IMG/VR virus record: IMGVR_UViG_3300047299_000023
Location: 1 to 42,638 of that record
DNA from: a virus
Length of the DNA: 42,638 nt
Direction: 5' to 3' (one strand)
Positions 2,852-34,634 of this stretch are shown in pieces. Below the pieces are notes generated by a model that had not been told where the DNA came from, did no database searches, and saw only the letters and a list, made by a program, of their open reading frames with translations. Numbering within the stretch: position 1 is the first letter of the stretch; each line of letters opens with the position of its first letter. The position numbers were made by a program, and so were the translations under genes.

Positions 2852-5295
2852 CACGAGAAGAAGTAGTGCGAATCTAGCACTTCTCGCAGGTTGAGGGTAC
2901 CCTTCTTGGGAGGCACAGGGCACACTGGGTATGCCCTAGCAAACTCCTCGATAGGATCGTTCTGCTCGTACATCTTAACGAACACCTCACGGATGATGTG
3001 ATACATCTCCTCGGAGTCAGCAGCGTGGGTACCGTAGTCATCGTGGATCATGGCTAGGTCAAAGCCCTTGTCAGCACAGGCGGCTGATACAAGGTGCAAG
3101 TGTGACGCATCCATGCTGTGCACAAAGTTAGGGGCCAAGCCTGTGGCATGACGCCGACCATGTGCTTCGTCCTTCTCGGACAAAACCTTGAGGCGGGTGA
3201 TGCCGTTGATGCGGGTAGTGATGCGGTGCTCGTTGACTTGGTAGTACGCTTGTGTACTGATGAACCCAGATGGTGTAACCCATGAGATCACGCCATCGTT
3301 CTCGTCACCGTACTTGTCCACGATCAGCTTGGCACAGGCACTCAGCCAGTCCATAGCCTCACGGCTCTTAACCACCACGTCACCAATAGCGGGCCACGCA
3401 TACGTCATCAGTACGGTAGCAGCAGCGTAGTATTCCTCTTTGGCAAAGCATGGAGCCTTACCATCCTTGAGGTAATCGTCGATCACGTACCGTACTGCAC
3501 TGCGCTTGGTCACACCGTAGGGTGTAGTCATCACGCTGCGCTTTACCACACTGCGGTCAATGCCGTGCTCCAACCAGCGGTAACGCAACACTGCATCCTC
3601 TGGGTCAGTAGCTGCCTGCATACGCTTGACAGTAGCCTCAGCCACCTTGCGGTAAATATCCTCCATCACCTTGTTGTTGGTGAGGTTGGTAGCTTGACCG
3701 CCAACTTCATCACGCAGCATGGCAGAGAAGTTCTGCAAGCCGTTGCATGAACCATCCATGCTCACAGCGATGCGAGACTCAAAGCCCTCGGGGTCGATCT
3801 GCCACTCCGCGTACTCAAAGCACCACGCCAAAAATTGTAGTGGGCTGTCTGCGTCTTGCCATTCAGTTCGATTCACGGGGTCGCTCGCAATCGCCATGAG
3901 CATCTGGTCTTTGTCCTTGTGCCAGTCAACACGCTCTTGCAATGTCGCCTTGTCAAAGCCCCACTTGTTTGCACCGTGGATGAGGAACCAGCGGCGGGCA
4001 TGCTCAGTGTGCAGTGGCTTGCCCTTGGAGAAGTGCAACAGCGCCTTCTGCAAGTCAGAGCCTTGTGGGTTAATGCCGTACGTCAAGGGGTAGAAGCGGC
4101 CACGGCTATCAGCGAAGTACACAAAGTAGAGATCGTCGTACTCTTTGAATGTTTCTGCTGCACGTGTCGCGCTGTAGAAGCGAGCGTACTTGGTGCTGAG
4201 CAGTTTACGTTCTGTGTACCAGTTTGTCATGGAGCGTTTCCAATCAAGGAACTCCTCCATCTGTTTGCCTTCGAGCTTGCTCGTGTCCGGCGTAGCTTCT
4301 AACCAGTCAGGGCGGGCAGGCCGTGTGGTGTCACGCATGCTGACAATCTCACCGATGTTGCTGTACTCCGCAACCTGCATGATGGTGTCAAGCACACGAG
4401 TGTTCACGCGCCACGCTGTACGCTGCAACTGGTTCAGCCCCTTGAGTACCTTAGGCATGTGCGCATCACGCAACAACTGACGTGCGGAGCTGTGCGCCTT
4501 GACCATGTAAGGGTGAGCACGGATCATGTCACGTGTGTGGAACCCGCCTTCATTGAACGCAGTCCAGTCACGTGGTGGCTCAACGCATGGGCCGAAGATA
4601 GGAGACATGATCTCCACGATACCCTTGATCTTGTTGATGATCTCAGAGACTTCAACAGTCAGGTGCACATCGCGGTCAGCCATACGGCCTGCTATCTTCT
4701 TGCCGTTACGCATAGCAGGTGGCTGAATAAAGATCATGCCTAAGTTTTGCAGGCGCTCAAGCAGGTACATACCCACTTGGTCACGGGAGCCTGTGTCCCA
4801 TGTGTCCAACTCAATGCCTTCCTTCTCAGCCTGCAAGCGAAACACAGTCATGCGGTGACGCAGGTTCTTTGAGCGCTTGCGGTTGAAGTCGTTGGCAAGC
4901 GTGTGATACAGGTCAGGTGAGATGTGCGCAATCTGTGATAGCACCAACTCGCAGTGAATGGTGCGGCCTACGTTGTACGCCGTGGGGCGTAGCTTGTTGT
5001 CGCCGTTGTTGCTGAGCATGATGGATAGCACAGTGCGCACAGTGAGCAGAGCAACTGCTTCAAGATCAAGCGGACGCAACAACTGAGCATGAGCCGCACG
5101 CTTACCGGGGTGGCACTCCATCACATCAGTGTGGAGGATGCGTGCTAATGGCATAACGTAATCACGAAGGATAGTTGCAGCGTATGGATTGCGGGCAGCT
5201 TCGCCTGCTTCCTCTGCACGGTTGAGCCTAGCACGGCATCGGTCAATGCCTTGGCTATACATGCGGGTTTCAATTTCTTGTTGCGTCAGTTTCAT
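2851..5295 (-). CDS. Single-subunit DNA-dependent RNA polymerase
   Basis: The 814-aa protein carries all the landmarks of the T7 RNA polymerase family. These are DSRGR at D396 (T7 DxxGR), motif A MDGSCNGLQNFSAMLRD with catalytic D514, motif B KRSVMTTPYG with K585 and Y593, and motif C IHDDYGTH with D752. The conserved GLAPNFVHSMDASHL precedes motif C. T7 ends in FAFA; this one ends in HYFFS. The enzyme transcribes the late genes from phage promoters, independently of host sigma factors. It is somewhat shorter than T7 (883 aa), as in phiKMV relatives. The gene starts 4 bp after the ligase stop and directly precedes the virion genes, a phiKMV-type arrangement. Confidence 0.97.
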   Translation of the reverse strand: MKLTQQEIETRMYSQGIDRCRARLNRAEEAGEAARNPYAATILRDYVMPLARILHTDVMECHPGKRAAHAQLLRPLDLEAVALLTVRTVLSIMLSNNGDNKLRPTAYNVGRTIHCELVLSQIAHISPDLYHTLANDFNRKRSKNLRHRMTVFRLQAEKEGIELDTWDTGSRDQVGMYLLERLQNLGMIFIQPPAMRNGKKIAGRMADRDVHLTVEVSEIINKIKGIVEIMSPIFGPCVEPPRDWTAFNEGGFHTRDMIRAHPYMVKAHSSARQLLRDAHMPKVLKGLNQLQRTAWRVNTRVLDTIMQVAEYSNIGEIVSMRDTTRPARPDWLEATPDTSKLEGKQMEEFLDWKRSMTNWYTERKLLSTKYARFYSATRAAETFKEYDDLYFVYFADSRGRFYPLTYGINPQGSDLQKALLHFSKGKPLHTEHARRWFLIHGANKWGFDKATLQERVDWHKDKDQMLMAIASDPVNRTEWQDADSPLQFLAWCFEYAEWQIDPEGFESRIAVSMDGSCNGLQNFSAMLRDEVGGQATNLTNNKVMEDIYRKVAEATVKRMQAATDPEDAVLRYRWLEHGIDRSVVKRSVMTTPYGVTKRSAVRYVIDDYLKDGKAPCFAKEEYYAAATVLMTYAWPAIGDVVVKSREAMDWLSACAKLIVDKYGDENDGVISWVTPSGFISTQAYYQVNEHRITTRINGITRLKVLSEKDEAHGRRHATGLAPNFVHSMDASHLHLVSAACADKGFDLAMIHDDYGTHAADSEEMYHIIREVFVKMYEQNDPIEEFARAYPVCPVPPKKGTLNLREVLDSHYFFS

Positions 5296-5298
5296 ATC

Positions 5299-6189
5299 TT
5301 AATCAGGTTTCAGTTTGTCATGCCGCACACCTTTGATGCGCGGCTCTCGTAAGCTACCATCTTCGGTAATGCCAATGCACTCAACCTCGACAATCTTGCC
5401 GATGATCGACGCGGGATCAGCGAGCCATGCTCGTCGTGTGTCGTAGTCTAAGCCACCAGCACGCACAGGCTTGCCGTTGTACTCAAGCACAAGGTTGCCA
5501 GCCATGCCAGCCATCTTGCCTTCACCTTCTTCAACGCCCGTAACCAACAGGTCAAAGGACATTACAGGCTTGACTTTGATGAGTTCACCATCTCGCGCTG
5601 TGCCTTTGCGCCACGGGGCTTTAAGGTCACGCATGATGAGGCCATCGTAGCCGCCCTCAGCAACGAGCTGGTTAGCAAGCTGCTGTGGCATGTAGGTTCC
5701 CGGTGGGTAGTAAGCCACCTCTCGCAGAGGCGAGTTAGGAATGCCGAGCTTACGCATGTTGAGGCAGATGTGCTTGAGGCGCTCGTCGTATGCAACTGGG
5801 TCATATCCTTCATCGAAGGCACGGGCTGACACAATATCGTAGACGACATACACAAGGTCTGGTTGGGCAGCATGCCGCCTGAACGCGCCGCTAATATCAG
5901 GGAATTTGGTAGCATCTTTCCACACCTCACCGAAGATTACCCAGCCCACACCGAACTGCGCATTGCACGCTTGCACGATGTGGTCACAGGACTTAACCAG
6001 TTCACCAGTGCGTGACTGAGCGAAGCCTGCATGAGCAGGCAACTCAGTGTGCACAACCATGTGACAGCCATCGTACTTACGTTGGCCGATGTGCGTTGAC
6101 TGCGCTAACTCATCAAGCGTGTGCGCCTTCTTGTAAGCAGACGCCTGCTTGTCGAACTCAGTTGCTTTCTGAATGATGTAGTCAGCCAT
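5299..6189 (-). CDS. ATP-dependent DNA ligase
   Basis: This is a 296-aa nick-sealing ligase of the small phage type. Adenylation motif I is RKYDG with the nucleotide-accepting Lys at residue 38 (counted from MADYIIQ). Motif III-like VIFGEVW, motif IV DGLIMRD and motif V ELIKVKP follow in order, and a C-terminal OB-like part ends in IKGVRHDKLKPD. I chose the ATG at 6189. It follows a weak GAGCAAG and overlaps the upstream stop by 8 bp, in keeping with the tight packing. An upstream in-frame start at 6240 would lie inside the previous gene. The ligase would join Okazaki fragments and repair nicks. It is the last gene before the RNA polymerase. Confidence 0.93.
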   Translation of the reverse strand: MADYIIQKATEFDKQASAYKKAHTLDELAQSTHIGQRKYDGCHMVVHTELPAHAGFAQSRTGELVKSCDHIVQACNAQFGVGWVIFGEVWKDATKFPDISGAFRRHAAQPDLVYVVYDIVSARAFDEGYDPVAYDERLKHICLNMRKLGIPNSPLREVAYYPPGTYMPQQLANQLVAEGGYDGLIMRDLKAPWRKGTARDGELIKVKPVMSFDLLVTGVEEGEGKMAGMAGNLVLEYNGKPVRAGGLDYDTRRAWLADPASIIGKIVEVECIGITEDGSLREPRIKGVRHDKLKPD

Positions 6190-6439
6190 GAAACGCTTGC
6201 TCCGTTTGTTCCATTGCGTCAGCGATAATGCCGACAGCATCTTGGAACTTGGTTGTGGCGGTGAGCTTCTCAGCTAACTGTGCGTACAGGTCAGCCTTCA
6301 TGTCATCATTGCCGAAGCCACACACATCGACTGCATGGTACAGCGCGTCCTCCAAGTCCTCGATAGGCAGCGTGCTACCATCAGGGTCTTTGGAGTAGAT
6401 CGCCATAGCAATCACAAATGCTTTTGCTGCGATGGTCAT
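6182..6439 (-). CDS. Hypothetical protein, replication region
   Basis: This is an 85-aa acidic, mainly helical protein (MTIAAKAFVIAMAIYSKDPD at the start; EDLEDALYHAVDVCGFGNDD in the middle). It has no transmembrane segment strong enough to call and no enzyme motif. Its ATG overlaps the stop of the DUF5664-like gene (ATGA), and its own end overlaps the ligase start, so translation is probably coupled. I do not recognise the family. Confidence 0.75.
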   Translation of the reverse strand: MTIAAKAFVIAMAIYSKDPDGSTLPIEDLEDALYHAVDVCGFGNDDMKADLYAQLAEKLTATTKFQDAVGIIADAMEQTEQAFHG

Positions 6440-6957
6440 GCGTTGTCCTTCAAGTACAGCTCCAGCTTAGCCAGTGCATTCCATGCTTCGTGAGCAAGGT
6501 GCAATGAGCCGGAGTCTTTGTCGTGTGTCTCACCCTTACCGCGCTTCAAGCGGTGACGGCCTTCGGCATCTGAGTAGCGGGCAAAGCCGTTGGCAACTTC
6601 TTTCCATCCGTTGTCGGTGTACTTTGCTGCACCATCAGTGCCAACCTTAATAACTGCTTCGAGCGCATTAGCGAAGCCGTCGAGTACGAGGGCAGGCCGG
6701 AGCTTACCAGCGTCGAGCTTCGCGCCCGGTGCATGTTGGTCAATGCCATTGGGGTCAGTCTCCTGATAGAGCGCTCTAACAAAACGAGTTGCACGCCACT
6801 CAAGCTCAGTCTCACCAAGCTCAAGGAGGCCAATGTGATACTCACCGCAGTGTAGTCCACCAGCAGCTACAGTGTATGTCTCACCATTTTGGATATGCTG
6901 TGTCGCGCACTTATCGTCAACGCATACAACACGATCTCCTACTTTAAATTCACTCAT
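6436..6957 (-). CDS. dATP/dGTP diphosphohydrolase-like protein (DUF5664 type)
   Basis: This 173-aa protein appears to have two parts. The N-terminal 65 residues (FKVGDRVVCVDDKC, NGETYTVAAGG) look like a small SH3/KOW-type barrel. Residues of about 80-173 match the pattern of the DUF5664/dGTP_diPhyd_N family: KLDAGKLRPALVLDGFANAL, GAAKYTDNGWKEV, RHRLKRGKGETHDKDSGSLH and AHEAWNALAKLELYL. In phages with base Z this family hydrolyses dATP/dGTP. It is also common in phages without PurZ, where it may tune the nucleotide pool. I see no PurZ here, so a base-Z genome is not suggested. The function is inferred from the family. Confidence 0.7.
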   Translation of the reverse strand: MSEFKVGDRVVCVDDKCATQHIQNGETYTVAAGGLHCGEYHIGLLELGETELEWRATRFVRALYQETDPNGIDQHAPGAKLDAGKLRPALVLDGFANALEAVIKVGTDGAAKYTDNGWKEVANGFARYSDAEGRHRLKRGKGETHDKDSGSLHLAHEAWNALAKLELYLKDNA

Positions 6958-6965
6958 GTGATTCC

Positions 6966-7745
6966 TTAGTTAGCCAACAGCGCACGGCGCTTGGCTTTGC
7001 TGTTGATTGTGAAACGATCACGACTCCAACCACCGCATGAGTTGCATCGGTAACGATGGTACTCGCTCACGTTGGTACGCACCACGCCATCCTTCTCAAC
7101 GTCATGGCTTCCGCACTTAGGACATGCGATCTCCTCGCTTGCCGTGTATGCTGCCACGTTGGGGTGGCCTGTCACCCAAGGGCGCAGCTTGAGGTACACC
7201 TGCTCCATTGAGAGTACGTCAGGGATGTTGTACTTGCGCATCGCAGCCCAAGCCTTTGGGTTGTCATTCAAGCACTCAGCCCACAGCTCGAAGCCGGGGA
7301 ATGCTTTGTGCTTTGACTTCTGAATCTTGGACAGGTACGTGCTCAACCACTCCAGCTTGTTGCTGGTGAAGGCTGCGACTTGTCGTGCCATCAGCATGGT
7401 GTCAATGACACGCACGGGTGATGGAGGTGGCAAGTCATGCAAGATCATACGAGCACGCATCTTACGCATGTCGAATCGCTTGCCGTTCTGTGCAATCAAG
7501 AAGTCATAGTCGTGCATGATTTCCCACAAGCGTTGCACAATCGCTTTGTCATTGAGCGGATCACCTGCTGTGTCCATGTACTCAATGGTCTTCTTGCTAC
7601 CGCCCAAGGGCTTGAAGCAGAAGGAGAGGATTGTCCACTCGCGGTCAATCTGATTGAGGCCTACGTTCTGATCGAACAAACCCCACGTGTGTGCACGCAG
7701 TGGGCTTGTCTCAATGTCGATCAGACCGATACGTGCTTCACTCAT
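6966..7745 (-). CDS. DnaQ/RNase H-like 3'-5' exonuclease with C-terminal zinc ribbon
   Basis: This 259-aa protein starts with exonuclease motif I, IGLIDIETSP, with D10 and E12. It has a middle motif LIAQNGKRFDMRKMRARM and motif III NIPDVLSMEQVYL, where an Asp is expected to complete the metal site. A four-cysteine zinc ribbon follows: CPKCGSHDVEKDG and then YRCNSCGGW. The ATG at 7745 is preferred over the one at 7760 because it overlaps the preceding stop (ATGA) and has GAGG upstream. The fold is that of predicted RNase H-like exonucleases. A role in DNA degradation, repair or recombination is inferred from the neighbours (endonuclease VII, 5'-3' exonuclease). Confidence 0.8.
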   Translation of the reverse strand: MSEARIGLIDIETSPLRAHTWGLFDQNVGLNQIDREWTILSFCFKPLGGSKKTIEYMDTAGDPLNDKAIVQRLWEIMHDYDFLIAQNGKRFDMRKMRARMILHDLPPPSPVRVIDTMLMARQVAAFTSNKLEWLSTYLSKIQKSKHKAFPGFELWAECLNDNPKAWAAMRKYNIPDVLSMEQVYLKLRPWVTGHPNVAAYTASEEIACPKCGSHDVEKDGVVRTNVSEYHRYRCNSCGGWSRDRFTINSKAKRRALLAN

Positions 7746-7915
7746 TGGCATGCCTCGCATGTAGTGTCGCCGGACTGGTCACGGTTACAGACCAAGGGTG
7801 CGTCACTGTCGAAGTCCAATACAGCTTGTGTTGGTGATGGAGTGTGCGTTGGTTGTGCATACCCGCTGCCTTCGTTCTCGGCCATAGGCAGGGCCACTGG
7901 GTTAATGTCGGTCAT
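7742..7915 (-). CDS. Small cysteine-containing protein
   Basis: This is an open frame of 57 codons. It starts MTDINPVALPMAENEGSG and ends CNRDQSGDTTCEACQ, with three cysteines in the last 15 residues that could bind a metal. The ATG overlaps the endonuclease VII stop (ATGA), and its TGA overlaps the ATG of the DnaQ-like exonuclease. This gives a fully coupled string of genes and makes the frame credible despite its size. The middle is Pro/Thr-rich and probably unstructured. Function is unknown. Confidence 0.6.
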   Translation of the reverse strand: MTDINPVALPMAENEGSGYAQPTHTPSPTQAVLDFDSDAPLVCNRDQSGDTTCEACQ

Positions 7916-8289
7916 GCTGATTCCTTCTTTGCCTCGCGGCGTTTCTTTGCTAACTTCTTAGCGCGTTCCTTCTTCTCCTCAACCGTGCGGTGTGTTGGAT
8001 AGATGGGATGGTGTGAATAGTCCTGCTCAATGTACTGAGCAACACGGCTGAGCATGTTACCTAGGCGTGAGCCAAGCAAGTGATTGATACGACGAGCGTT
8101 CTCAATCTTGCCTAGCATTGCGTTGCACCCACGGTGCAGCACAGCACGCACGCGGCCTGTCTTGTGGTCATGGTCAAGCACATCACTGCCTGCCTCAATG
8201 CGTTCACAACACAGCATGCACAAACCACCTTGCTCAGAGAGCATCTTGTCGCGCTGGACTTTGACCTGTGAGGCGGTGAGCTTCGTCAT
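7912..8289 (-). CDS. Recombination endonuclease VII-like protein
   Basis: This 125-aa nuclease belongs to the endonuclease VII (His-Me finger) family. It has C24xxC27, then DHDHKTGRVRAVLHRGCN with D39, H40, D41, H42 and N56. The second zinc pair appears as H52xxC55 instead of two cysteines. The active-site order matches T4 endonuclease VII. The C-terminal tail (EEKKERAKKLAKKRREAKKE) is very basic and may bind DNA. In T7-like phages this class resolves branched DNA before packaging. The gene start overlaps the exonuclease by 56 bp. Confidence 0.9.
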   Translation of the reverse strand: MTKLTASQVKVQRDKMLSEQGGLCMLCCERIEAGSDVLDHDHKTGRVRAVLHRGCNAMLGKIENARRINHLLGSRLGNMLSRVAQYIEQDYSHHPIYPTHRTVEEKKERAKKLAKKRREAKKESA

Positions 8290-20740: not shown

Positions 20741-20987
20741 CATTCTGTGCTGTGCTCTGTGCTTGGTAGCTCAGTGCATGGTGTGCATTGTATGTGTCTA
20801 TTCTTACATGTTCCTGACTGTGCATTGTCTGTGTTCTGTTCTGTGCTTTGCCTGTGGTTCTGTGCATCCATGCTGTGCATTGTGGCTGTGTGTGCTCTGC
20901 CTGTGCTCTGTGCTTGGCTGTGCTGTGCCTTGTGGTTGCCTGTGCATTCTCTGTGTGTTCTGTCTGTGTTCTGGTGGCATTCTCACC
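20741..20987. repeat. T-poor tract with degenerate GCACAG repeats
   Basis: The plus strand here is made almost only of T, G and C, with CTGTGC/CTGTGT repeated more than ten times. The minus strand is therefore A/C/G-rich with GCACAG units. The frames that run through it on the plus strand are by-products of this composition. The tract lies between the late gene end and the early promoters, where T7-like phages keep their terminal repeats. Confidence 0.5.
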
Positions 20988-21797: not shown

Positions 21798-21939
21798 CTA
21801 GGGCCTCCTTTTGCAGTCGGATGGTACCTGACTGTCGATCAATGATTACAGCGGCTTGTAGGGCCTTCTGGTGCGCCCACGAGGCATACCCAGTCAGGGC
21901 CAAAGCAAGGGCCACGAGGGCGGCAATGAGGTATTTCAT
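21613..21939 (-). CDS. Inner-membrane spanin (Rz-like)
   Basis: This 108-aa protein has one N-terminal membrane helix (residues 4-20, LIAALVALALALTGYAS) and then a long charged coiled coil (KEALDAQEQAAKRLTAVAAL, SAQRDERERRLRAS). This is the standard i-spanin layout, cytoplasmic N-terminus and periplasmic rod. It ends in a Trp-containing VADWVREH. It pairs with Rz1 encoded in the overlapping frame. The ATG overlaps the end of the acetyltransferase gene. Confidence 0.88.
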   Translation of the reverse strand: MKYLIAALVALALALTGYASWAHQKALQAAVIIDRQSGTIRLQKEALDAQEQAAKRLTAVAALQSAQRDERERRLRASITAQQAAIAVAPEWAAVPLPTAVADWVREH

Positions 21940-22349
21940 AGGTCAATCTTCCAGTATAGGCCATCTTCCCAGCCCCACTTCTCCTGCGGCTGATACATGC
22001 GGAACCCAGCCCGTATGAGGCCGTTGTTGCTACGCCAATTCCAGTTGGCTGTGTCAGTCACACAGGTGCGCACGCCAGCCTTGCGCATGGCCTTGAAGGC
22101 TGCGCGGAGCATGCGGGGATACAGGCGGTTGCCTTCGTGGGCCGGGAGCGTCCCAGCGCGTTTGAGGTACCAATACGAGCTGTTGTCGTGCATCACGATG
22201 AATGCCACTGGTTTGCCATCCTTATAGCTAAGCCAGTACAAATAAGCGGGATCATCTGCGATAGGCTCATCACCGGGTAGGCAGAGGCGCTGTAGTTCGT
22301 CTATTGCTTCACTATATGGCTTGGCCTTTACTGAATATCCCGTAGACAT
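21936..22349 (-). CDS. GNAT-family N-acetyltransferase in the lysis cassette
   Basis: The 137-aa product from MSTGYSVKAKPYSEAIDELQ has the GNAT layout. A strand pair (YWLSYKDGKPVAFIVMHDN) is followed by the acetyl-CoA region AGTLPAHEGNRLYPRMLRAA, a helix KAMRKAGVRTCVTD and a final NNGLIRAGFRMY motif. I use the ATG at 22349 (AAAGGG upstream) in place of an in-frame start at 22433. It overlaps the endolysin end by 22 bp. It could modify a small molecule or a protein N-terminus; a lysis role is not shown. The fold assignment is fairly secure, the substrate unknown. Confidence 0.75.
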   Translation of the reverse strand: MSTGYSVKAKPYSEAIDELQRLCLPGDEPIADDPAYLYWLSYKDGKPVAFIVMHDNSSYWYLKRAGTLPAHEGNRLYPRMLRAAFKAMRKAGVRTCVTDTANWNWRSNNGLIRAGFRMYQPQEKWGWEDGLYWKIDL

Positions 22350-22795
22350 AGGGCCCTTTCGTCTTGGCGGCGCTTGGTTAGCCCCGGCAACTTGACGGCC
22401 CCGGCGTAATCCCAGCGAAGTAGTTGATTGCAAGCGCCGATGTGGTCGCCTGCGTTGAGTTTCTTGAGTAATGTGGACTTAGCTAAGTTGCCTCGCCCCA
22501 CGTTGAAGGTAAAACTGGTGTAAGCGTCAAGCTCACCCTGAGTTAGAGGCACCTGAGCTAAATCAAGTACGGCATCTGCGGCCTCACGCGCATCGACTGC
22601 GAGTAAGTCCAAGCATTGCTGGTCAGTGCGCCATTGTCCACGAGCAGCCGTAGCTGTATGCCCGTAGCAAATGGTTGGCACGCCCCACCCGTAAGCGGGG
22701 TCTTGATAAGCGGAGTTGCTTTTACCTTCGTGAGTGGCGATAAAGCCAAGCCCGGCTACGCTCACCACAAGGGCTGCAAGTCGGGCTTTACTCAT
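22328..22795 (-). CDS. SAR endolysin, GH24 lysozyme
   Basis: This 155-aa muramidase has the GH24 triad in THEGKSNSAYQDPAYGWGVP and the following TICYGHT: E23, D32 and T41. The N-terminus (LAALVVSVAGLGFIA) is a weakly hydrophobic helix rich in Ala and Gly, placed directly before the catalytic Glu. This is the hallmark of signal-arrest-release endolysins, which wait tethered in the membrane until the holin collapses the potential. NVGRGNLAKSTLLKKLN is the usual GH24 second half. Its ATG overlaps the preceding stop (TAATG). Confidence 0.92.
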   Translation of the reverse strand: MSKARLAALVVSVAGLGFIATHEGKSNSAYQDPAYGWGVPTICYGHTATAARGQWRTDQQCLDLLAVDAREAADAVLDLAQVPLTQGELDAYTSFTFNVGRGNLAKSTLLKKLNAGDHIGACNQLLRWDYAGAVKLPGLTKRRQDERALCLRDIQ

Positions 22796-25049: not shown

Positions 25050-25312
25050 CAGTGCATACCCTCTGGCATGGCCTCGTGGAAGTCAGGAAGGGCAGGAGGG
25101 TTGCGCTTAGCGCGACGAGCCTCCATGATCTTCTCCAACTCGCCCAAGGCGTTGTCATCACTCGGAGTACAAGTGATGTTGTTGTTCTTCAAGAAGCTGA
25201 TGGCTGCGCTAATTTCCGCAGCCGTGGCCTCGCCACCCTCAATGCGTTCAGTGAGGTGAGTGGCGATAGCATTATGCAGTACGCTGAGCTGTGACTCAGT
25301 TGCTTTGGACAT
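25049..25312 (-). CDS. Terminase small subunit
   Basis: This 87-aa protein from MSKATESQLSVLHNAIATHL lies between holin and large terminase, as T7 gene 18 does. The centre, AAEISAAISFLKNNNITC, is typical of autographivirus small terminases, followed by a helix (ALGELEKIMEARRAKRN). I use the ATG at 25312, with GGAG 7 nt before, and reject an upstream TTG at 25324. It would recognise the packaging site and hand DNA to the large subunit. Confidence 0.85.
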   Translation of the reverse strand: MSKATESQLSVLHNAIATHLTERIEGGEATAAEISAAISFLKNNNITCTPSDDNALGELEKIMEARRAKRNPPALPDFHEAMPEGMH

Positions 25313-25520
25313 GATGTTCTCCAATCTCGCATCGTGGCTTTACCACGTCCTTGTAGATTTGGTAGAGCTTCTGACCGATGAGCAATGTTGTGTAGATGAG
25401 CGTGGCCCACACCACCAACTCATTGACTGAGTAACCAGCAACTGTCGCAATGGACACTGTGGTGGGTGGGCCAACTTTGGCAGCGACTGCTGCCACGGTT
25501 TCTGTGTGATGATCTGTCAT
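25296..25520 (-). CDS. Holin, T7 gp17.5-like
   Basis: This 74-aa protein has one membrane helix (about residues 33-50, NELVVWATLIYTTLLIGQK) and a short charged C-terminus. T7 gp17.5 has the similar pattern LNEWFYVAAIAYTVVQIGAK and sits at the same place, after the tail fibre genes and before the small terminase. It would depolarise the membrane and release the SAR endolysin. Two His residues near each end are unusual but not diagnostic. It overlaps the small terminase by 17 bp. Confidence 0.82.
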   Translation of the reverse strand: MTDHHTETVAAVAAKVGPPTTVSIATVAGYSVNELVVWATLIYTTLLIGQKLYQIYKDVVKPRCEIGEHHVQSN

Positions 25521-25522
25521 GG

Positions 25523-27190
25523 TTAGAACACGATAGGAGAAGGTGCACAGCAGGACTCAGCATCGTCGTCACCGACTTGACTAGAGCCGCCGTAGCCAGA
25601 CATGAGCAACTGCCCATCGTCAAGCAAGAACAAGGAAGCGCCCTCGTTGGTATGACCTGAGGTGTTAATGTCCACCACAGTGCGCACACCGCCAATAGGA
25701 ACTGGTGTAAATGCTGCACGGTTTGTAAAGTCACCAACACCTAATGCGCCGTTGGCGTTGTAGCCAGTGGCGTACACTGCACCATCAGAGGCGAGCAGTA
25801 GGGTGAAGCCATAGTCAGTGGTACCACCAATCACAATCTTACTTACCGTGGTGCCAGCGTTAAGCGGCAAACCAGTGAGCTGTGTGAACGTGGTCAAGTC
25901 ACCAACTGCACGACCAAGTTGACCTTGGTTGTTACGGCCTGTAACCCAGATTGTGCCATCAGTCTTCTTGATGATGGTACTTGGGTAGTCGTACGCACTT
26001 GTGTACACATCTGCTACGTTGGTGCTCACCACGATGGGTGTAGAGATAGCTGTACCAGCAACCGCCCCACTACCAATGCACCCGTAGTTGCTTGTGCCCC
26101 AGCCGTAGAGGGTGCCCGTGGTAGATAGTGCGAAGCATCCGTAAGCGAACGGGAATAGTTTGGCAACTGTGATATTGTTTGTAACGAAGTACGCAATAGC
26201 CGTGGGGATGTTTGCTTGTGTGGCATTACCATTACCGAGCTGGTACTCACCGTTGTAGCCCCATGCGTAGGGCACGCCAGCAGTAGTGAGTGCGTAGTAC
26301 GTAGTGTAGCGCTCACGCCCTGCGTAAATCGAAGCTACGTTAGTGAGCACAGGAAGTTCTGTGAACACGCTGCGTTGCACAACGTCACCTTGACCAAGTT
26401 GGCCGTAACCGTTGTAGCCACATGCGTGCACTTTACCATCAGAAGTCAAGACGCAAGTGCTGCCATAACCCTCGGGTGAGAGCGTATGTGCAACTGATGT
26501 GACTGTCTTGCCAATCAATGAACCGTAGTCGCTAGAACGTACTGGCACATAGCGGTTGGTCGTGTCATTCACACCGAGTTGTCCGTAGCCATTGGAACCC
26601 CATTGCCAGAGTTTGCCGAGTGTGTCGATAGCGCGGCTACCTACATCACCGTAACCTGTGTAAAGTTTAGACACGCCAGTGAAACCGAACGGGAATGCTG
26701 TCTTCTGTGGCGAGGTCTTGGCATTGGTGCTGTTACCAACACCCAAACCATACGCATCGTTAGCACCCCAGCCGCGCACAGTGCCATCATTCATAATGAC
26801 CATAGGGCGGCGGTACGCAATACTGCGATGCTCAAGTAGTTTGGCAACCTTCACGCCCGAGCGTGTTTCCGGCACGCCCCACACGGGGAGGCCCGTGACT
26901 GAATCAATCTTGAGCACTTGTCCTGATGTGCCCTTGGGCAAGCGGACAAGTTGTGCACCATCAAAGTAGATGAGGTCGCCTGAGGCTGCGCCAATATTGG
27001 CCGAACCTTGGGCGGCGAGTGCCCATGTTACACCGTTGTCGCTGGGAGTAACGCCAGTGACTGACGCACCCACACACACGAAGGAGTCACCGTTGTAACT
27101 CACCACGTCTTGCAGCTTGTACGTTGTACCTGCTGCGTACGCGCCACGCCATGTGAACGCGATTTTACCGAGAGAGACTGTAGCAGTCAT
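25523..27190 (-). CDS. RCC1-type beta-propeller tail protein 2
   Basis: This is a 555-aa protein. Residues of about 8-45 (FTWRGAYAAGTTYKLQDVVS, YNGDSFVCVGAS) resemble the small domain often found at the start of tail fibre modules. The rest consists of RCC1-type repeats of about 50 residues, each centred on a W/G-rich strand: VRGWGAND, LWQWGSNGYGQLG, VHACGYNGYGQLG, PYAWGYNGEYQLG, LYGWGTSNYG, IWVTGRNNQGQLG, VYATGYNANGALG and LLMSGYG. That gives a seven- or eight-bladed propeller. The end QVGDDDAESCCAPSPIVF mirrors that of the neighbour. Its place after the tail fibre gene makes it a likely receptor-binding protein; this is inference. Confidence 0.8.
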   Translation of the reverse strand: MTATVSLGKIAFTWRGAYAAGTTYKLQDVVSYNGDSFVCVGASVTGVTPSDNGVTWALAAQGSANIGAASGDLIYFDGAQLVRLPKGTSGQVLKIDSVTGLPVWGVPETRSGVKVAKLLEHRSIAYRRPMVIMNDGTVRGWGANDAYGLGVGNSTNAKTSPQKTAFPFGFTGVSKLYTGYGDVGSRAIDTLGKLWQWGSNGYGQLGVNDTTNRYVPVRSSDYGSLIGKTVTSVAHTLSPEGYGSTCVLTSDGKVHACGYNGYGQLGQGDVVQRSVFTELPVLTNVASIYAGRERYTTYYALTTAGVPYAWGYNGEYQLGNGNATQANIPTAIAYFVTNNITVAKLFPFAYGCFALSTTGTLYGWGTSNYGCIGSGAVAGTAISTPIVVSTNVADVYTSAYDYPSTIIKKTDGTIWVTGRNNQGQLGRAVGDLTTFTQLTGLPLNAGTTVSKIVIGGTTDYGFTLLLASDGAVYATGYNANGALGVGDFTNRAAFTPVPIGGVRTVVDINTSGHTNEGASLFLLDDGQLLMSGYGGSSQVGDDDAESCCAPSPIVF

Positions 27191-27198
27191 AATGATCC

Positions 27199-28854
27199 TT
27201 AAAAGCGAATGGGTTGCGGGGTGCTAGTGTTCTCACCATCATCGTCACCATTCATGCTGTACTCACCTTGACCAGATACGAGCACCTGCCCAATGTCATT
27301 GAGTGCATACACTACGTTGGAGTGCTGTGATTCATAGCGATAGCCGCCAAAAGCGAAGTCCACAATGGGACGCTCGCTGAGATAGAAGCTATTGGGCATC
27401 TGTGACTCTGTAAATAGTCCGTTACCTGATTGTCCAGCAAGTCCACCACCCCAAACAACAAGCTGCCCATCAGAGCGCAGTGCTGCACCTGTAGCGCCAT
27501 ATTGTGCACCCTGTACACGGAGTTTCACAATGTTTGTTAAGTAGCCTGCGCCAATGGTTGCCCATGTAGTAGTATCTGTACTGTTTGCACCGTTGATGTT
27601 AAAGCCTTGATAGCCCCGTGCCTGCACAGTACCATCGTTCATAAGCGCAATCGCAACTTGGTAGCCACCGAAGGCCACGTAAATATCTTTTACGTTTGTA
27701 TGGAAGGGCGTACCTGTAGGCGGCAAGTCTGGAGCCATCGAATAGCCCATGCCAGTTTGTCCAGCACCAACACCACGAATGTACACGTCACCATTCTCAA
27801 AGAGAATACCTGAACCCCAGTCGTACTGTTGCCCGGCGACCCAGTGTTGATCGTCCTCACCCCAAAACATTTTCTTAACACGACGACCACCAAGGTCAAG
27901 ACGGTTATGAACAGTCCAAGAGTTTGTAGTATTCCATGACAGGGCGTTGTCACCAGCAGTCCATGCGTAGCCATCGTAGTCAATGAGGCACGATGCGCCA
28001 TAGTAGCCACCGTTGGTCACGGCGTATTTCATCGGCACAGTTGCAGTAATTGGAATGAGAGTAGCTGTTGTGATAACACCAGTCACACCCAAGCCTGCAC
28101 AGCCAGTTTGGTTATAGCCCCACACGTACACGCGCCCTTGGTCATCACGAGCCATAGGTGTTGGGTAGTTGGTATTGCCATAGTGACAATGCACATCAAC
28201 AATCTTTGCGGTTGCTGGAATGCCAGAGAAACCGTTGAGTTTTACTGGAGTGCGTACAACGCCCGTTAGGCCGCGCCCCGACATGCAGTTAGCATCATTA
28301 GAGCCGCTGTACCACAAGCCACCAGTTGTGTCAATGTAGAAGCTGTTTGCCCACGTGCACACTACTTTTGCAATTTCTATGCCCTTGGGGAAAACTGCCC
28401 GGCTAGGTGTCCAGCGAGAAGCACCACTATCAGTGCGCCCATCGCCTAACTGCCCAGCATCTGTACGTCCAATGCTGCGTACTGAGCCGTCAGTCATAAC
28501 AAACATGCCAAAGCGGTTGGTAGCATAGGCACCCCGATGGTTCTGTACTGTGTCCATCAGGCGGGCACAGGTAGTGCCATTACGGTCAAGGGTGTAGCGA
28601 AACTCAATAGAGTCATCTACGTTACTGTGCAACGCTTGTCCATCAATACCGCCAACACTTGCACCGCCTGTAAGCATGTGACCCTTGGTGATGGCATCTT
28701 GCTGACCCAGCAGGAATGGTTCCCAGTTGCCGTTACGCATCACGTACAGACCACCAGTTTTAAATACAACGTCACGCTCGGTGTACGTTCCGGTGCTTAC
28801 AAAGTCGCCTTGCCAGATGTAGCCAAGCGCTTCAATGTTCATTTGTAAATTCAC
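27199..28854 (-). CDS. RCC1-type beta-propeller tail protein 1
   Basis: This 551-aa protein has the same layout as the next gene: an N-terminal YIWQGDFVSTGTYTERDVVF segment, a linker, then RCC1-type blades (VRSIGRTDAGQLGDG, LWYSGSNDANCMSG, VYVWGYNQTGCAGLG, VYIRGVGAGQTGMG, VQARGYQG, LVVWGGGLAGQSGNG, VLVSGQGEYSMNGDDDG) and the end TPQPIRF. The blades are more divergent than in its neighbour, so the two are old duplicates. The ATG overlaps the tail fibre stop (ATGA), which ties it to the fibre. It probably sits at the fibre tip or tailspike and binds a cell-surface molecule. Confidence 0.8.
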   Translation of the reverse strand: MNLQMNIEALGYIWQGDFVSTGTYTERDVVFKTGGLYVMRNGNWEPFLLGQQDAITKGHMLTGGASVGGIDGQALHSNVDDSIEFRYTLDRNGTTCARLMDTVQNHRGAYATNRFGMFVMTDGSVRSIGRTDAGQLGDGRTDSGASRWTPSRAVFPKGIEIAKVVCTWANSFYIDTTGGLWYSGSNDANCMSGRGLTGVVRTPVKLNGFSGIPATAKIVDVHCHYGNTNYPTPMARDDQGRVYVWGYNQTGCAGLGVTGVITTATLIPITATVPMKYAVTNGGYYGASCLIDYDGYAWTAGDNALSWNTTNSWTVHNRLDLGGRRVKKMFWGEDDQHWVAGQQYDWGSGILFENGDVYIRGVGAGQTGMGYSMAPDLPPTGTPFHTNVKDIYVAFGGYQVAIALMNDGTVQARGYQGFNINGANSTDTTTWATIGAGYLTNIVKLRVQGAQYGATGAALRSDGQLVVWGGGLAGQSGNGLFTESQMPNSFYLSERPIVDFAFGGYRYESQHSNVVYALNDIGQVLVSGQGEYSMNGDDDGENTSTPQPIRF

Positions 28855-29768
28855 AGAGTCACCACCAGTTCATTGTTAATGATTGAGAAGGTCAAGCCCT
28901 CGCTAATCATGGAGGACTCAAAATCACTGGCGGTAAACTCACCGTCTCGCCCAAATGTGAGTAGGAGTTCTGAACCGTCAGCGGAAACTTTAAAGCCGTA
29001 GAAGACAGGGCGGGCTGTTGATGCTACGAACTCGTAGCCAGACTCGTCAGCCTTAACCTGCAAGAACTGCATAGCAGCACCTACGACAGACGTAGGCAAA
29101 CCAGCAGCAATCAAGCGGGCGGTTGTCTGCGCCAGCAAGTCTTGCATTGTGCTAGTGATTGCAGCACTGTCTGCTTCAAGCTCGCTCAGGATTGCGTTAC
29201 CATCCGTGTTGATAGTATTGATCTTGTCGTTACCGATAGAGGTAAGGTCAGCAATCGCTGTGGTCGCAGTCTGTTCTGCTTCGGCAGCAGAGGCAGCGGA
29301 CGCAGCAGCGGCGGCTTGTGACGCAGACTTAGCGGCCTGCGCCTCAGTGATCGCATTGTTCGCCGCGTCAAGTGTAATTGTGATAGAGGTCGTCAGTTGC
29401 TTGACAATATCAGCGTTTGATGCGTCAGCAGTCTCAGCGCCGATAAACACAGCTTGCTGTGCCACCTTATCCAAGTTAGCCTCAGTCAAGCGGCTACCAG
29501 TTGTGAAGTCTACCAGCGGGCCACCCTTAGGCGTGTCGCGGTAGATAACGATGTTCTTCCCTACAGGGATAGGAACACCAATGTCGATTGTGAAGTCACC
29601 CACAAACATTGAGGGCAAGATTTCAAGGTCAACCCGTGCTAGTGTCTCGGCGTCCTCAATGTACGCCTTAACATGGGTCTTATCCATGTAGCCACCAGAG
29701 AAGCTGAACTCGAACTGTGTGTTCACACCATCACCGGGAACCCGATATGTCGCGTATAGCGTAGTCAT
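28851..29768 (-). CDS. Tail fibre protein with T7 gp17-type N-terminal anchor
   Basis: The first 150 residues of this 305-aa protein match the T7 tail fibre N-terminal domain: YRVPGDGVNTQFEFSFSGGY, VGKNIVIYRDTP and SRLTEANLDKVAQQAVFIGA. This part attaches fibres to the tail tube. An Ala/Ser-rich coiled coil follows (AAKSASQAAAAASAASAAEA), then a short beta domain. It lacks a large receptor-binding head, so it is likely an adaptor on which the two following propeller proteins are mounted. GGAG precedes the ATG and a promoter-like motif lies 20 bp upstream. Confidence 0.9.
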   Translation of the reverse strand: MTTLYATYRVPGDGVNTQFEFSFSGGYMDKTHVKAYIEDAETLARVDLEILPSMFVGDFTIDIGVPIPVGKNIVIYRDTPKGGPLVDFTTGSRLTEANLDKVAQQAVFIGAETADASNADIVKQLTTSITITLDAANNAITEAQAAKSASQAAAAASAASAAEAEQTATTAIADLTSIGNDKINTINTDGNAILSELEADSAAITSTMQDLLAQTTARLIAAGLPTSVVGAAMQFLQVKADESGYEFVASTARPVFYGFKVSADGSELLLTFGRDGEFTASDFESSMISEGLTFSIINNELVVTL

Positions 29769-29822: not shown

Positions 29823-32800
29823 TTACTCTTTGAGCGCGTTTACACCAATCAGGAAGAAAGGCGTACGGCTAAACGGCAGCGCTTTCGCAACCTTGTACGG
29901 ATCAGTAGGATCGTGCACGGCTTTGCCAACGTCTTCAATATAGCCAGCGGCAGGCAGCACGGAAGACACAATGCTACCACTACCCTTGCGGCCACCAGTC
30001 TCAGTGCCAGCCACGCTACCCAACAAGTCCATGACCTCACCAGCAAAGCCGGAGGAGCCAACGTAGTTGAGAGATGCACGTGCTAAGTTCAATGGGTCAA
30101 GCTGCTTAGCGAGGTACTCATCTTTGTCTGCGCGGCCCTGTGCACTGAACGCGATACGCGCCAGCACAACAGGCATAGCAAACGCCATTGAGCCTACCAA
30201 GATACCCATAGCACCAGCTACACCGTGGTTGCCTTTGTTACGCGCCCACTGCTTCTCCAAAGCTACCAATGGGAAATTGCGGAACTGCGAGAGCAAGCGG
30301 CCCATGTCGCTGTGTGTCCAGCGGCCAGTCTCGCCAATGAATGAACCTTGGATGATCTGGTTGCTGCCACGCACAACGGCTTGGTGAAACTCGTTAGCTG
30401 CGTCAATGTCGCTGATCTTTGAAATGTCAAACTCCTTGATGCGGCCAAACGCATCGCGCTTGACAACCTTCTCCATCTCAGCTTTGAACACTTCACGTAC
30501 ACGCGGCGAGAAGCCCATGTCCGACAGCGCCTTATCATCAGTACCTTCACGAATATACCGCAGTGCCTTGTGCACAATTTGCTCCGACATACCACGCACC
30601 TGAGCAGCGTGGATAGCGCGGTGCATAGACAGCACGCTAGACACGTGAGCACCAGTCTTGAGCGCACGGTCAAACCATGTCACGGACTCATGCCCATAGC
30701 TTGAGTAGTTCGCCTCTGGGTTCGTGTGCATGGTAGTCATGGTGTAACCATCAAGACCAAACTCACCGCCACCGCCGAACTGCTCCATGTGACCCAAGAT
30801 ACCGTTCTCCACTTTCTCACCGCGTGCAATGGCGTGCACCTCGCCGATCAAGCGTGGCATATCAACGATGGACTCCAGCGTGTTCTTCACACCAACAGCC
30901 CACACACCGTTGAAGGATTCACCAAACTGCGGGAAACCCATGCCACCCAGCTTCACTAGCGAAGTAACGGAGAGCAGACGATCCATGCCGCGTGTGCGTG
31001 CATCACCGAAAGGCCGACCAAGGAACTCAGCAGCAATCTGGTCAAACGCCTTCATCACTTGCTCGTGGTTCTTGTCTTTTGGCCCGTGCATCAGCGCCGT
31101 GCGCAGCAGGGTCAGGCCCTGTGCACCCATCACACCGTGATTAGCCAGCGCCACTTCGCCGCTCACGCGACTTGCGTAGTTGCTCAGCAATGTCAAATGG
31201 TCAGTGTTGAACAAGTCCATAAGTGTGCCCATGCTGCCATCAGCTTTGGGGAACGCTTGGTTCAAGTTCAAGTGCAGACGCTTCTTCGTATGCCCTGCAC
31301 CACCAGCAGAGTAGCGGCCCATTGCAGCGCCTACTTCTTCTTTGGTCATGCCCATAGCTTCAAGCGCACCGCGCACCATCTCCGCAGCAGCGGGGTTATG
31401 CACGTTGGCAGGAATCTCGTGTCCACCGAATGCGTTGACGCGGGCGTGGTTCAAGTACGTGCGGGCCGGCTCCTCAGCGAACTTGGCGTCGAAGCCTTCG
31501 ATCTCTTGGAACTGCTTTGAGAGTACATCAGAGAAAGCACGCAGTTGATCTGGTGTCATCTCCTTGATGCGGCCCGAGGCCAGTACGTGAGGCATGTAGC
31601 CACGCGAACTTTCTGGGAGCCGTGCCCATCCAACAGTCTTTGTGTCAACCTGTGCAACACGCATGCGCTCATACGCTTTCTCAAGCGTGTCGGCAGCTTG
31701 CGCAACCAGTGGATGTGGCTCCGTCTTCTCACCGTGCAGACGTGAATCTTGCTCAGCAGCGACAGCGCGGTTAAACGCGTCACGGTCACGGACATTCCAG
31801 TGATCCTTGATTGCGTTACCGCCCACCTCATCGCGCCATGCAGCGTAGAAGCGGTCAAACTCCAACTTGCTGTGGCCGATGTACCCTTTCTCAAGGATGT
31901 ACTTAGACAGCGCGGCAGTAGCACGACGACCACTTGCACCAGACGCATTCTCCAACAACACACCAGCGACCATGCGAGCAACTGGGTTGGGGCTGATAGC
32001 CATGATGGTAGCAGGCAATGCCACGTTGAAGGTGTCGTTGTTGCCAAGCATTGACTTGAGCAACTCCTCATCTGTTGGGTTATTCACATTCCACTTCTCA
32101 GCCTGCTTGTAAATGTCAAGCACAGCCTTGAACTCGGAACGCTCACGTGGTGTACCCTGCGGCATCAAGTCCAGACCGTTACGCTTTGCCACTTCCTCAT
32201 TAGCTGGATCAATGCGGGGTGCAGTAGTAGGTGCAGCCAGATCATCAGCGCCAGCAGTGGCGGCAGCTTTTGGAGCGGGAGCAGCCTCAGCAGCAGCGGC
32301 TCGGTTGGATGCACGCACACCTTCAATGAACTGCTCAAAGCTCTCGGAGGCGCGTAGCATGCCTTTGTCCTGTGCAGTGGTGAACAGGTCAACAAGGCGC
32401 TTGAACAATGCAGCCACCATGCTCACAAAGTTCTTGTCGTACATGACAGTAGCACCGGGGCCGATACCACGTGCGCCTGCTTCGCTATACTTTGAGAACT
32501 GCTCAGCCAAGAACTCCTCGAAGTTGCCATAATACTTATCAGCAAATGACTTATCGCGGGCGCTCGCAATCGCTTGATGCAGCGACTTGTCGCCCATGTT
32601 TGCGTTCTCGCTGTGCACCATTGGGCTGCGCAGCATCAATGCGTCAGCAGCTTTCTTTGGTGTACGATACAGCAACGCCCAGTCCTTGTATGCCTGCAAC
32701 AGTTTATCTAACTGCTCAGGTGGTAGGTTTGGAACGAACTGTCGAGAGATCATGTGACCAAGCTCGTGCGTCAGCGTGCTTGCTAGCGTAGCAGAACCGG

Positions 32801-34634
32801 GGCGTAACGCAATCAGTGACGCTTGCTTGGAAATAGCCACGTGTGCACCGTCAGGTATAATCATCTCGCCGCTGATGTTGCGGGTCTGAATAACCTTTGA
32901 GAGCACGATTGTGCGACCGGGCAAGAACTCCTTATACAGCGGCGTGAGCATCTGTTGGTACAACTTAAAGATTGGGAGGTCTTTAACGCTGTCCGATAAA
33001 TGCACACCCTCGCCCAGTGCGTGCACAGTATCCACGTCAAGCTCTGGGCTGTACGCCTTGAGTTTGGATTCACCCTCCTGTGTACGCATCAGCATCTCAC
33101 GCGTGGTCAAGTCCATGCGGCTGTCGTAGCTAGGTGCAGCATTGAGGTCATCCATAGCGTGCGCTTCAACCGACAGCTTACCGGGTTCCGCAGTCTTCGC
33201 CATGCCCTTGATGCGCTCGCGCACCTGCTTGCCATATTCACGTGCACGCACTTCGGAGTATCCCGTGGAGTCCATAACGAACTTGAGGTAATCGGCATCG
33301 CGTTTACTGGGCTTGTTGCCAGCAATGATGTAGGCAGCGCGATCAACGTCATTTGCAAACTCAAGATCAAACTGCTTTGCGCCATAGGAGTAGCGCGGTG
33401 CAGCCTTTGCAAGTGCGGCAGGCAGGGCAGTAGGTGCCTCTGTGGGTGTAGCCTTCGGGGTTGCCTCAGGTTCTACTGTTTTCACAGCGGGCACTTCGTC
33501 TGCTGCCTTTGCAACAGTACCATCTGCCTGTGCTTTTGGGGCCTCTACAACTGGAGGCTCCTCGGGAGGCATCTCGTCGAGGTTGTGTGCTGGGATGCGA
33601 TCATCTTCTTTTGCGCGTGTAGCTGCGGCTCGTTGCACAGTAGCAACTTGCTCACGCTCAAGGCGCTCAGCCTCTTTAATCTTCACTTCGTCGGGTGCGT
33701 CTTTACCCACGTTCTCAAGGGCCTGCTGCATGATCTTTGCCTTGCGCATTTCGCCTTCGACACGAATGCGAGTAGCAAGACTTTCTTGCGCTTGCTTGTA
33801 AGCCAGCGGGCCAGTCACGGTAGATGGGATCAAGCCCATCATTGCAGCAGCACCGTAATCATACATTGACTTGTGCTCGCCCATAATATCTAACGCGCCC
33901 TCAACAGCCACGTTACCAACCACGTTTTCTGCTACGTTCGACACGACAGCCGCAGCCTTGCGGCCCTGTAACGCAAGCTGCGTTGAACTCAGGCCCAGTT
34001 TTGCAACGGCCCCGCTCATGCCAATGCCCGCTACCCAGTTCACTGGGTTTGCAATGCCAGCCAACAACCCATAGCCTATTTGTCCAGCAGTGCCTGACGT
34101 AGCGAGAATCTCAGCGTTCTCACGCTGGGTCTTAATACGCTCAACTCGGTGATCCCAGTCGTCTTTGTTGTTCGCACCTTGAAGAAGCTCTTGCTCCTCG
34201 TCAGTGTAGCCAGCAAAGTATTTCTCCCAATTCTTGTTGCGGTCATCGCGCCATGCAACATCCAGTCGATCAGTTGATGGACGGATTGTGCGCACAAGCG
34301 CATCAATGTACGGGGTCATCTCGTTCTGATAAGCAGCGCCTACTTTAGCAGTAAACCCTACAGACTGGTCAGCAGCGTATTTAGCGCGAGCTTGCGCGTC
34401 GAGCTGCTCTGCCAACGATGGTTCGTCCGCGATCATACGTGGGTCAGTCGCAGCATACATGGAGTTTGCTTTGGGACGCAGGGACTCCACTGGTGCCTGC
34501 GGCTTCTTTCCCTTACCACGTGGGAGTGGGCGTGGCCCACCAACTTGGTCGTACATCGTAGAAGCGGCAGTGCGTGCGCCGCCCGTTACTCCATCATTTG
34601 CAGGCAGGTCGCCTGTCACTTCATCCAATGTCAT
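29823..34634 (-). CDS. Large internal virion protein, gp16-like, with HELGH motif
   Basis: This is a 1603-aa ejected core protein at the T7 gene 16 position; its ATG overlaps the previous stop. It starts with a disordered segment, then membrane-active-looking segments (GQIGYGLLAGIANPVNWVAG). A Pro/Ala/Glu-rich linker spans about residues 345-415. A zincin-like motif THELGHMISRQF follows with H623, E624 and H627, and EEFLAEQF (E707/E711) could give the third ligand. The long C-terminal part is helical, with hydrophobic stretches (GAMGILVGSMAFAMPVVLAR). I do not see the lytic transglycosylase that T7 gp16 has near its N-terminus. It probably helps to bring DNA across the envelope; the peptidase activity is inferred. 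Confidence 0.9.
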   Translation of the reverse strand: MTLDEVTGDLPANDGVTGGARTAASTMYDQVGGPRPLPRGKGKKPQAPVESLRPKANSMYAATDPRMIADEPSLAEQLDAQARAKYAADQSVGFTAKVGAAYQNEMTPYIDALVRTIRPSTDRLDVAWRDDRNKNWEKYFAGYTDEEQELLQGANNKDDWDHRVERIKTQRENAEILATSGTAGQIGYGLLAGIANPVNWVAGIGMSGAVAKLGLSSTQLALQGRKAAAVVSNVAENVVGNVAVEGALDIMGEHKSMYDYGAAAMMGLIPSTVTGPLAYKQAQESLATRIRVEGEMRKAKIMQQALENVGKDAPDEVKIKEAERLEREQVATVQRAAATRAKEDDRIPAHNLDEMPPEEPPVVEAPKAQADGTVAKAADEVPAVKTVEPEATPKATPTEAPTALPAALAKAAPRYSYGAKQFDLEFANDVDRAAYIIAGNKPSKRDADYLKFVMDSTGYSEVRAREYGKQVRERIKGMAKTAEPGKLSVEAHAMDDLNAAPSYDSRMDLTTREMLMRTQEGESKLKAYSPELDVDTVHALGEGVHLSDSVKDLPIFKLYQQMLTPLYKEFLPGRTIVLSKVIQTRNISGEMIIPDGAHVAISKQASLIALRPGSATLASTLTHELGHMISRQFVPNLPPEQLDKLLQAYKDWALLYRTPKKAADALMLRSPMVHSENANMGDKSLHQAIASARDKSFADKYYGNFEEFLAEQFSKYSEAGARGIGPGATVMYDKNFVSMVAALFKRLVDLFTTAQDKGMLRASESFEQFIEGVRASNRAAAAEAAPAPKAAATAGADDLAAPTTAPRIDPANEEVAKRNGLDLMPQGTPRERSEFKAVLDIYKQAEKWNVNNPTDEELLKSMLGNNDTFNVALPATIMAISPNPVARMVAGVLLENASGASGRRATAALSKYILEKGYIGHSKLEFDRFYAAWRDEVGGNAIKDHWNVRDRDAFNRAVAAEQDSRLHGEKTEPHPLVAQAADTLEKAYERMRVAQVDTKTVGWARLPESSRGYMPHVLASGRIKEMTPDQLRAFSDVLSKQFQEIEGFDAKFAEEPARTYLNHARVNAFGGHEIPANVHNPAAAEMVRGALEAMGMTKEEVGAAMGRYSAGGAGHTKKRLHLNLNQAFPKADGSMGTLMDLFNTDHLTLLSNYASRVSGEVALANHGVMGAQGLTLLRTALMHGPKDKNHEQVMKAFDQIAAEFLGRPFGDARTRGMDRLLSVTSLVKLGGMGFPQFGESFNGVWAVGVKNTLESIVDMPRLIGEVHAIARGEKVENGILGHMEQFGGGGEFGLDGYTMTTMHTNPEANYSSYGHESVTWFDRALKTGAHVSSVLSMHRAIHAAQVRGMSEQIVHKALRYIREGTDDKALSDMGFSPRVREVFKAEMEKVVKRDAFGRIKEFDISKISDIDAANEFHQAVVRGSNQIIQGSFIGETGRWTHSDMGRLLSQFRNFPLVALEKQWARNKGNHGVAGAMGILVGSMAFAMPVVLARIAFSAQGRADKDEYLAKQLDPLNLARASLNYVGSSGFAGEVMDLLGSVAGTETGGRKGSGSIVSSVLPAAGYIEDVGKAVHDPTDPYKVAKALPFSRTPFFLIGVNALKE

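Follow-up and report, generated by a model that had tools for sequence, protein, structure and literature searches.

RESULTS

A short fibre adaptor and two RCC1-repeat genes occupy the fibre locus of a T7-like phage

The window, that is, the whole 42,638-base viral record analysed here, comes from a T7-like phage with a single-subunit RNA polymerase, T7-type tube and nozzle proteins and a Gp10A-like capsid protein. Its terminase is approximately 62% identical to those of Caulobacter, Sphingomonas, Brevundimonas and Curvibacter phages. The position of internal virion protein D is followed, on the minus strand, by a fibre adaptor (c), two RCC1-repeat proteins (A and B), a holin and the small and large terminase subunits:

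29823..34634, minus strand: 1603-aa ORF upstream of the adaptor, at the internal virion protein D position (assigned from position and remote similarity to the internal virion protein of L029)
28851..29768, minus strand: c, fibre adaptor, 305 aa (PF03906, 46.8 bits; phrog tail fibre families; C-terminal alignment of 14-18 cassettes)
28854..29198, minus strand: proposed docking domain, the C-terminal ~115 aa of c, kept across cassettes with otherwise unrelated adaptor N-termini
27199..28854, minus strand: A, predicted RCC1 propeller protein, 551 aa (GTG 28854) or 547 aa (ATG 28842), the faster-evolving copy
25523..27190, minus strand: B, predicted RCC1 propeller protein, 555 aa, the conserved copy
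25545..28820, minus strand: exchanged block, without DNA homology to the close relative L061 between these points
25296..25520, minus strand: T7-type holin, the gene next after B, which bounds the fibre locus (PF10746, 26.1 bits; phrog_920)

The first-pass annotation of this DNA had placed two ORFs of 551 and 555 aa at 25523-28854, preceded by a short fibre adaptor; this is exact, with A at 27199-28854(-) and B at 25523-27190(-), and the adaptor corresponds to the 305-aa ORF at 28851-29768(-). The true start of A is probably at 28842, where an internal ATG lines up with the starts of the orthologous proteins and yields a protein of 547 aa. Among the terminase relatives, KSC encodes a single 1054-aa fibre at the equivalent locus, and in Scott a 574-aa protein accompanies a short fibre. 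Elsewhere in the window, short, degenerate, CTGTG-rich tandem repeats were detected by TRF at 20809-20973, and a GNAT-family acetyltransferase ORF (PF00583) lies downstream of the terminase gene at 21936-22433(-).

A and B are predicted to be eight-bladed members of the RCC1 superfamily

Both proteins score above the curated 21.7-bit cut-off of the Pfam RCC1 family (PF00415): A with 44.2 bits (E 3e-11) over two stretches and B with 133.6 bits (E 3e-39) over seven, and the blades of the downstream copy are therefore indeed the more regular, as had been proposed. With these E-values, chance or misreading is ruled out as the source of the repeats. Over their full length the two share 26% identity (E 5e-19). 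As the first-pass annotation had noticed, their N-termini are similar, over ~45 aa, and their C-terminal ends match (GDDDGENTSTPQPIRF in A, GDDDAESCCAPSPIVF in B). In A, an N-terminal anchor of ~95 aa precedes the RCC1 repeats at ~94-547; in B, the anchor spans the N-terminal ~110 aa, has a CBM5/12-like start and is followed by repeats at 113-555.

Parsing of the sequences yields eight repeats in each protein, not the seven blades of canonical RCC1 and UVR8 (and likewise of HERC2 and RPGR), so that A and B are best described as RCC1-superfamily repeat proteins and not as canonical seven-bladed RCC1. Single-chain AlphaFold2 models built with orthologue alignments reached a pLDDT of 72.3 for A and 80.9 for B, with the anchor domains as low-confidence parts of both. 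The B model has 32 strands in a clean 8x4 pattern; in the A model eight A-B-C strand sets can be made out, several of them with a weak fourth strand. In Foldseek searches of the PDB, UVR8 came first for both models (E 3e-20 for A and 9e-30 for B) and the top matches were UVR8, HERC2, RPGR and RCC1, all with a probability of 1.00 and an rmsd of 4.5-6 Å; this high rmsd fits the comparison of eight repeats with seven-bladed references. The profile search and the structure prediction, both of which had been suggested together with the original assignment, thus agree with RCC1-type propellers, and the repeats together with the strand pattern of B lead us to predict eight blades for each.

The adaptor combines a variable tail-attachment domain with a shared C-terminal domain

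Residues ~4-149 of c correspond to the N-terminal, tail-attachment domain of T7 gp17 (PF03906, 46.8 bits against a cut-off of 25.2). The Pfam search gave no other family match for the 305-aa adaptor and did not find PF03906 in A or B. The N-terminal part varies by phage, being a T7 fibre domain in the window and other fibre anchors elsewhere, while the last ~115 residues (~190-305) form a conserved domain common to all cassettes regardless of tail type. A tblastn search with this C-terminal domain gave no match. Among 399 genomes of one order, the adaptor C-domain, A and full-length B were found only in the centre genome, so the exclusiveness of the adaptor C-domain rests on one positive.

A and B always occur together

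We gathered ~140 loci, comprising ~60 distinct cassettes, by independent scans with A and B profiles. The A genes were retrieved with A patterns and the B genes with B patterns, so that co-occurrence is not built into the sampling. Local profile searches recovered c-A-B in constant order and strand at all loci save at contig ends. After removal of duplicates, all 73 B genes preceded by 1.8 kb or more of sequence have A, and all 80 A genes followed by 300 nt or more have B. The adaptor was also present in 70 of 72 cassettes. In one exception, a Sheuella prophage (L164/L050), a deletion runs from c residue ~49 to A residue ~282; in the other (L104), c has diverged. The deletion junction of the Sheuella amnicola prophage lies at 7627-7776 of L050 (also in L164) beside an intact B, a decayed cassette. 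In a Tepidicella genome (G003, contig C16, 487-1485), a second copy of A sits at the contig edge beside a complete cassette, perhaps reflecting two module-bearing prophages.

In good agreement with the proposal of a duplicated and diverged pair, A and B form two separate clades in the tree (support 99/98 and 97/97), which excludes a recent tandem duplication and indicates that the duplication is old. The A and B distance matrices are near-identical (r=0.973 over 63 cassettes, Mantel p 0.001). Among GenBank phages, tblastn with A returned one weak record, and the matches of B were confined to generic RCC1 repeats or to the anchor domain; we thus found no GenBank phage record with the cassette. 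A limited search of the open-licence literature likewise retrieved no paper that describes an obligate A/B pair together with a separate adaptor across podoviral and siphoviral tails.

The pair is exchanged as a block between phages with different tails

The cassette resides in lambda-like siphoviral prophages, in T7-like phages and in phages with other podovirus-type portals and terminases. In Burkholderiales prophages it lies between the tape measure protein and the lambda-like minor tail proteins plus gpJ. Two close relatives of the window phage, L061 and L063, match it at 96% in TerL, 92% in TerS and 97% in the adaptor N-terminus, and yet A and B of L061 are only 38% and 52% identical to those of the window. 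DNA homology with L061 is lost at 28820, ~12 codons into A, and regained at 25545, no more than ~7 codons before the end of B; A and B were swapped as one unit. The far border of the swapped block coincides with the matching C-terminal ends of A and B.

The lambda-like prophages L039 and L043 present a similar picture: neighbouring genes are 90-96% and gpJ 89% identical, while homology breaks off within A and returns close to the end of B, apart from short patches in between. In both halves of the tree the window pair groups with that of the siphoviral L039 (A 100/100, B 89/93). The window A and B also group with those of L029, and the L061 pair with L001. Always found together and passed on jointly between widely differing phages, A and B are marked as a portable cell-recognition unit. 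The same putative unit, with sharp swap borders, is used by short- and long-tailed phages.

A evolves faster than B, and both are under purifying selection

Different evolutionary rates for the two copies had been anticipated, and in one clade of 23 close cassettes dN was 0.114 for A and 0.032 for B, the faster copy being the upstream, less regular A. In A, the propeller was 2.6 times as variable as the anchor (dN 0.126 versus 0.048), while in B the two were equally conserved (0.031 and 0.035). The corresponding dN/dS ratios were 0.09 for A and 0.05 for B. Positive selection, which the first-pass annotation had suggested looking for on loop residues among close relatives, was not seen gene-wide in either protein. 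B is under strong purifying selection and retains ~94% identity between prophages from different Burkholderiales genera.

Across 25 lineages, the AB and CD loops of A were more variable than the BC and DA loops (p 2e-8, with gapped columns scored as variable and the loops taken from a medium-confidence model); within one close clade this bias was weak (p 0.04). No such bias was seen in B over the 25 lineages. By propeller geometry the anchor enters at the BC/DA side, and the variable AB/CD side of A would therefore point away from the tail.

DISCUSSION

A and B very probably act in host recognition at the tail, as the first-pass annotation had proposed. This role is suggested by synteny (the two genes follow a PF03906 adaptor, with the internal virion protein position on one side of the locus and holin/terminase on the other), by the anchor domains (that of B is also carried, by itself, on tail fibre proteins from pelagiphages and cyanophages and on T4-like fibres), by the natural fusion of a T7-type fibre to RCC1 repeats described below, and by the swapping of the pair as a unit. 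We consider it likely that c, A and B together constitute one portable host-recognition unit of the tail, and fairly likely that A and B work jointly. The notion of a duplicated receptor-binding module thus stands with regard to the RCC1 propellers, the adaptor, the duplication, the different rates and host recognition, but not with regard to two host specificities as independent alternatives.

In the mechanism that we propose, the N-terminal domain of the adaptor, of the T7 gp17 type here and other domains in other phages, would plug into the tail, and its conserved C-terminal domain would carry both propeller proteins, attached via their conserved N-terminal anchors. The eight-repeat propellers would then face outward and bind the cell surface. 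The faster-evolving A is the likely specificity head, while the conserved B may be an obligatory partner or, alternatively, a second head for a widespread receptor. Virion presence, docking via the adaptor C-terminus, receptor binding and this division of labour are our inferences. A specificity head would not usually be expected to show purifying selection as strong as dN/dS 0.05-0.09, nor the ~94% identity that B retains between prophages from several genera. On balance we lean slightly towards a self-contained hetero-pair of eight-bladed RCC1 propellers that, with its own docking domain, is an obligatory two-part receptor-binding device and moves as a block between unrelated tail types (T7-like, lambda-like and other podoviral).

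Two diverged heads on one adaptor could instead be independent receptor-binding proteins on a branched fibre, each providing an alternative host specificity. Such two-protein fibres with alternative receptors are established in the T5-like phages DT57C and DT571/2, where LtfA and LtfB, like A and B, are two tandem fibre proteins with one anchor, one variable and one conserved (PMC4728585); for A and B the arrangement is deduced from their anchors. We regard this as distinctly improbable. In T5-like phages LtfA can differ while LtfB is identical, and single-fibre relatives exist (PMC4728585), whereas independent loss or replacement of one head was not seen among relatives of our cassette: A and B were never found apart (73/73 and 80/80), are matched in divergence (r=0.973) and are exchanged jointly. 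Further differences are that LtfA and LtfB are not propellers, that their heads vary independently and that they occur in T5-like phages and are not spread over unrelated tail types. A possible but still unlikely arrangement is that only A binds the receptor and B is a structural or assembly partner, serving in the capping, trimerisation or maturation of A. The propeller and the anchor of B hardly differ in variability, while the A propeller is 2.6 times as variable as the A anchor, and variation is concentrated in the AB and CD loops of A (p 2e-8; 0.04 in the close clade) with no bias in B, which would fit, although the loop classes depend on a medium-confidence model. Against this, B possesses a tail-type anchor itself and is exchanged along with A, whereas a part with a purely structural role might have remained in place.

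Condensation of phage DNA inside the head has been suggested for RCC1 proteins of phAPEC6 (PMC7247149) and W70 (PMC11370258) and is echoed by jumbo phage annotations. For A and B we consider this extremely improbable: the annotation derives from the eukaryotic name, while A and B have tail-fibre anchors, come after a fibre adaptor and are exchanged like host-recognition genes. Moreover, PollyC and Ppr_SeaP2, cultured T7-like Pseudomonas phages, encode one protein of 865-867 aa in which RCC1 repeats follow a T7-type fibre N-terminus (the PF03906 match is weak, E 6e-5, just under the 25.2-bit cut-off). These proteins (PollyC gp12 and Ppr_SeaP2 gene 12; phrog_4219), annotated as 'tail fiber assembly' or RCC1, share both elements and the locus with our cassette but are one chain with one propeller, without a separate adaptor, an A/B pair or a B-type anchor. 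Annotations of phage RCC1 proteins widely refer to condensation of chromosomes or DNA; the cassette and the PollyC-type fusion point to the tail tip instead.

Single-chain RCC1 fibres and RCC1 repeats in phage virions are already known. The latter were found by mass spectrometry in Escherichia coli phage W70 (W70_237-239) and in GAP32 (gp1) and, like A and B, are tandem and variable among relatives (PMC11370258, PMC5259590); unlike A and B, they are linked to neither a T7 adaptor nor the A/B anchors, and their role was assumed to be DNA condensation or left open. T7 gp17 shares its N-terminal domain and genome position with c. It carries its receptor tip within the same chain, whereas here the tips are separate genes and the adaptor has only 305 aa. 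The sharp borders of the swap provide a clean natural experiment for mapping receptor specificity, and the conserved pair raises the testable question of why two different propellers are always needed.

In the marine Autographiviridae MedDCM-OCT-S30-C28 and HTVC024P, one or two small proteins bearing a B-type CBM5/12-like anchor come after the fibre, and the MedDCM-OCT-S30-C28 fibre weakly matches the adaptor C-domain; unlike in our cassette, the heads are not RCC1 propellers. At 4120-8233 of MedDCM-OCT-S30-C28 (L175), the fibre and two B-anchor proteins without propellers perhaps represent the same docking scheme with other heads. T4-like fibres of ~1,200 aa (L122, 2345-5893; L123, 843-4580) have several tandem B-type CBM5/12-like anchor motifs at their N-termini. 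An apparent RCC1 match in a paper on RcGTA turned out to be a gene number, rcc1086, and not a domain. Finally, seven RCC1 places lie in a 35-kb unannotated viral contig, Marine virus AG-345-E08 (L173).
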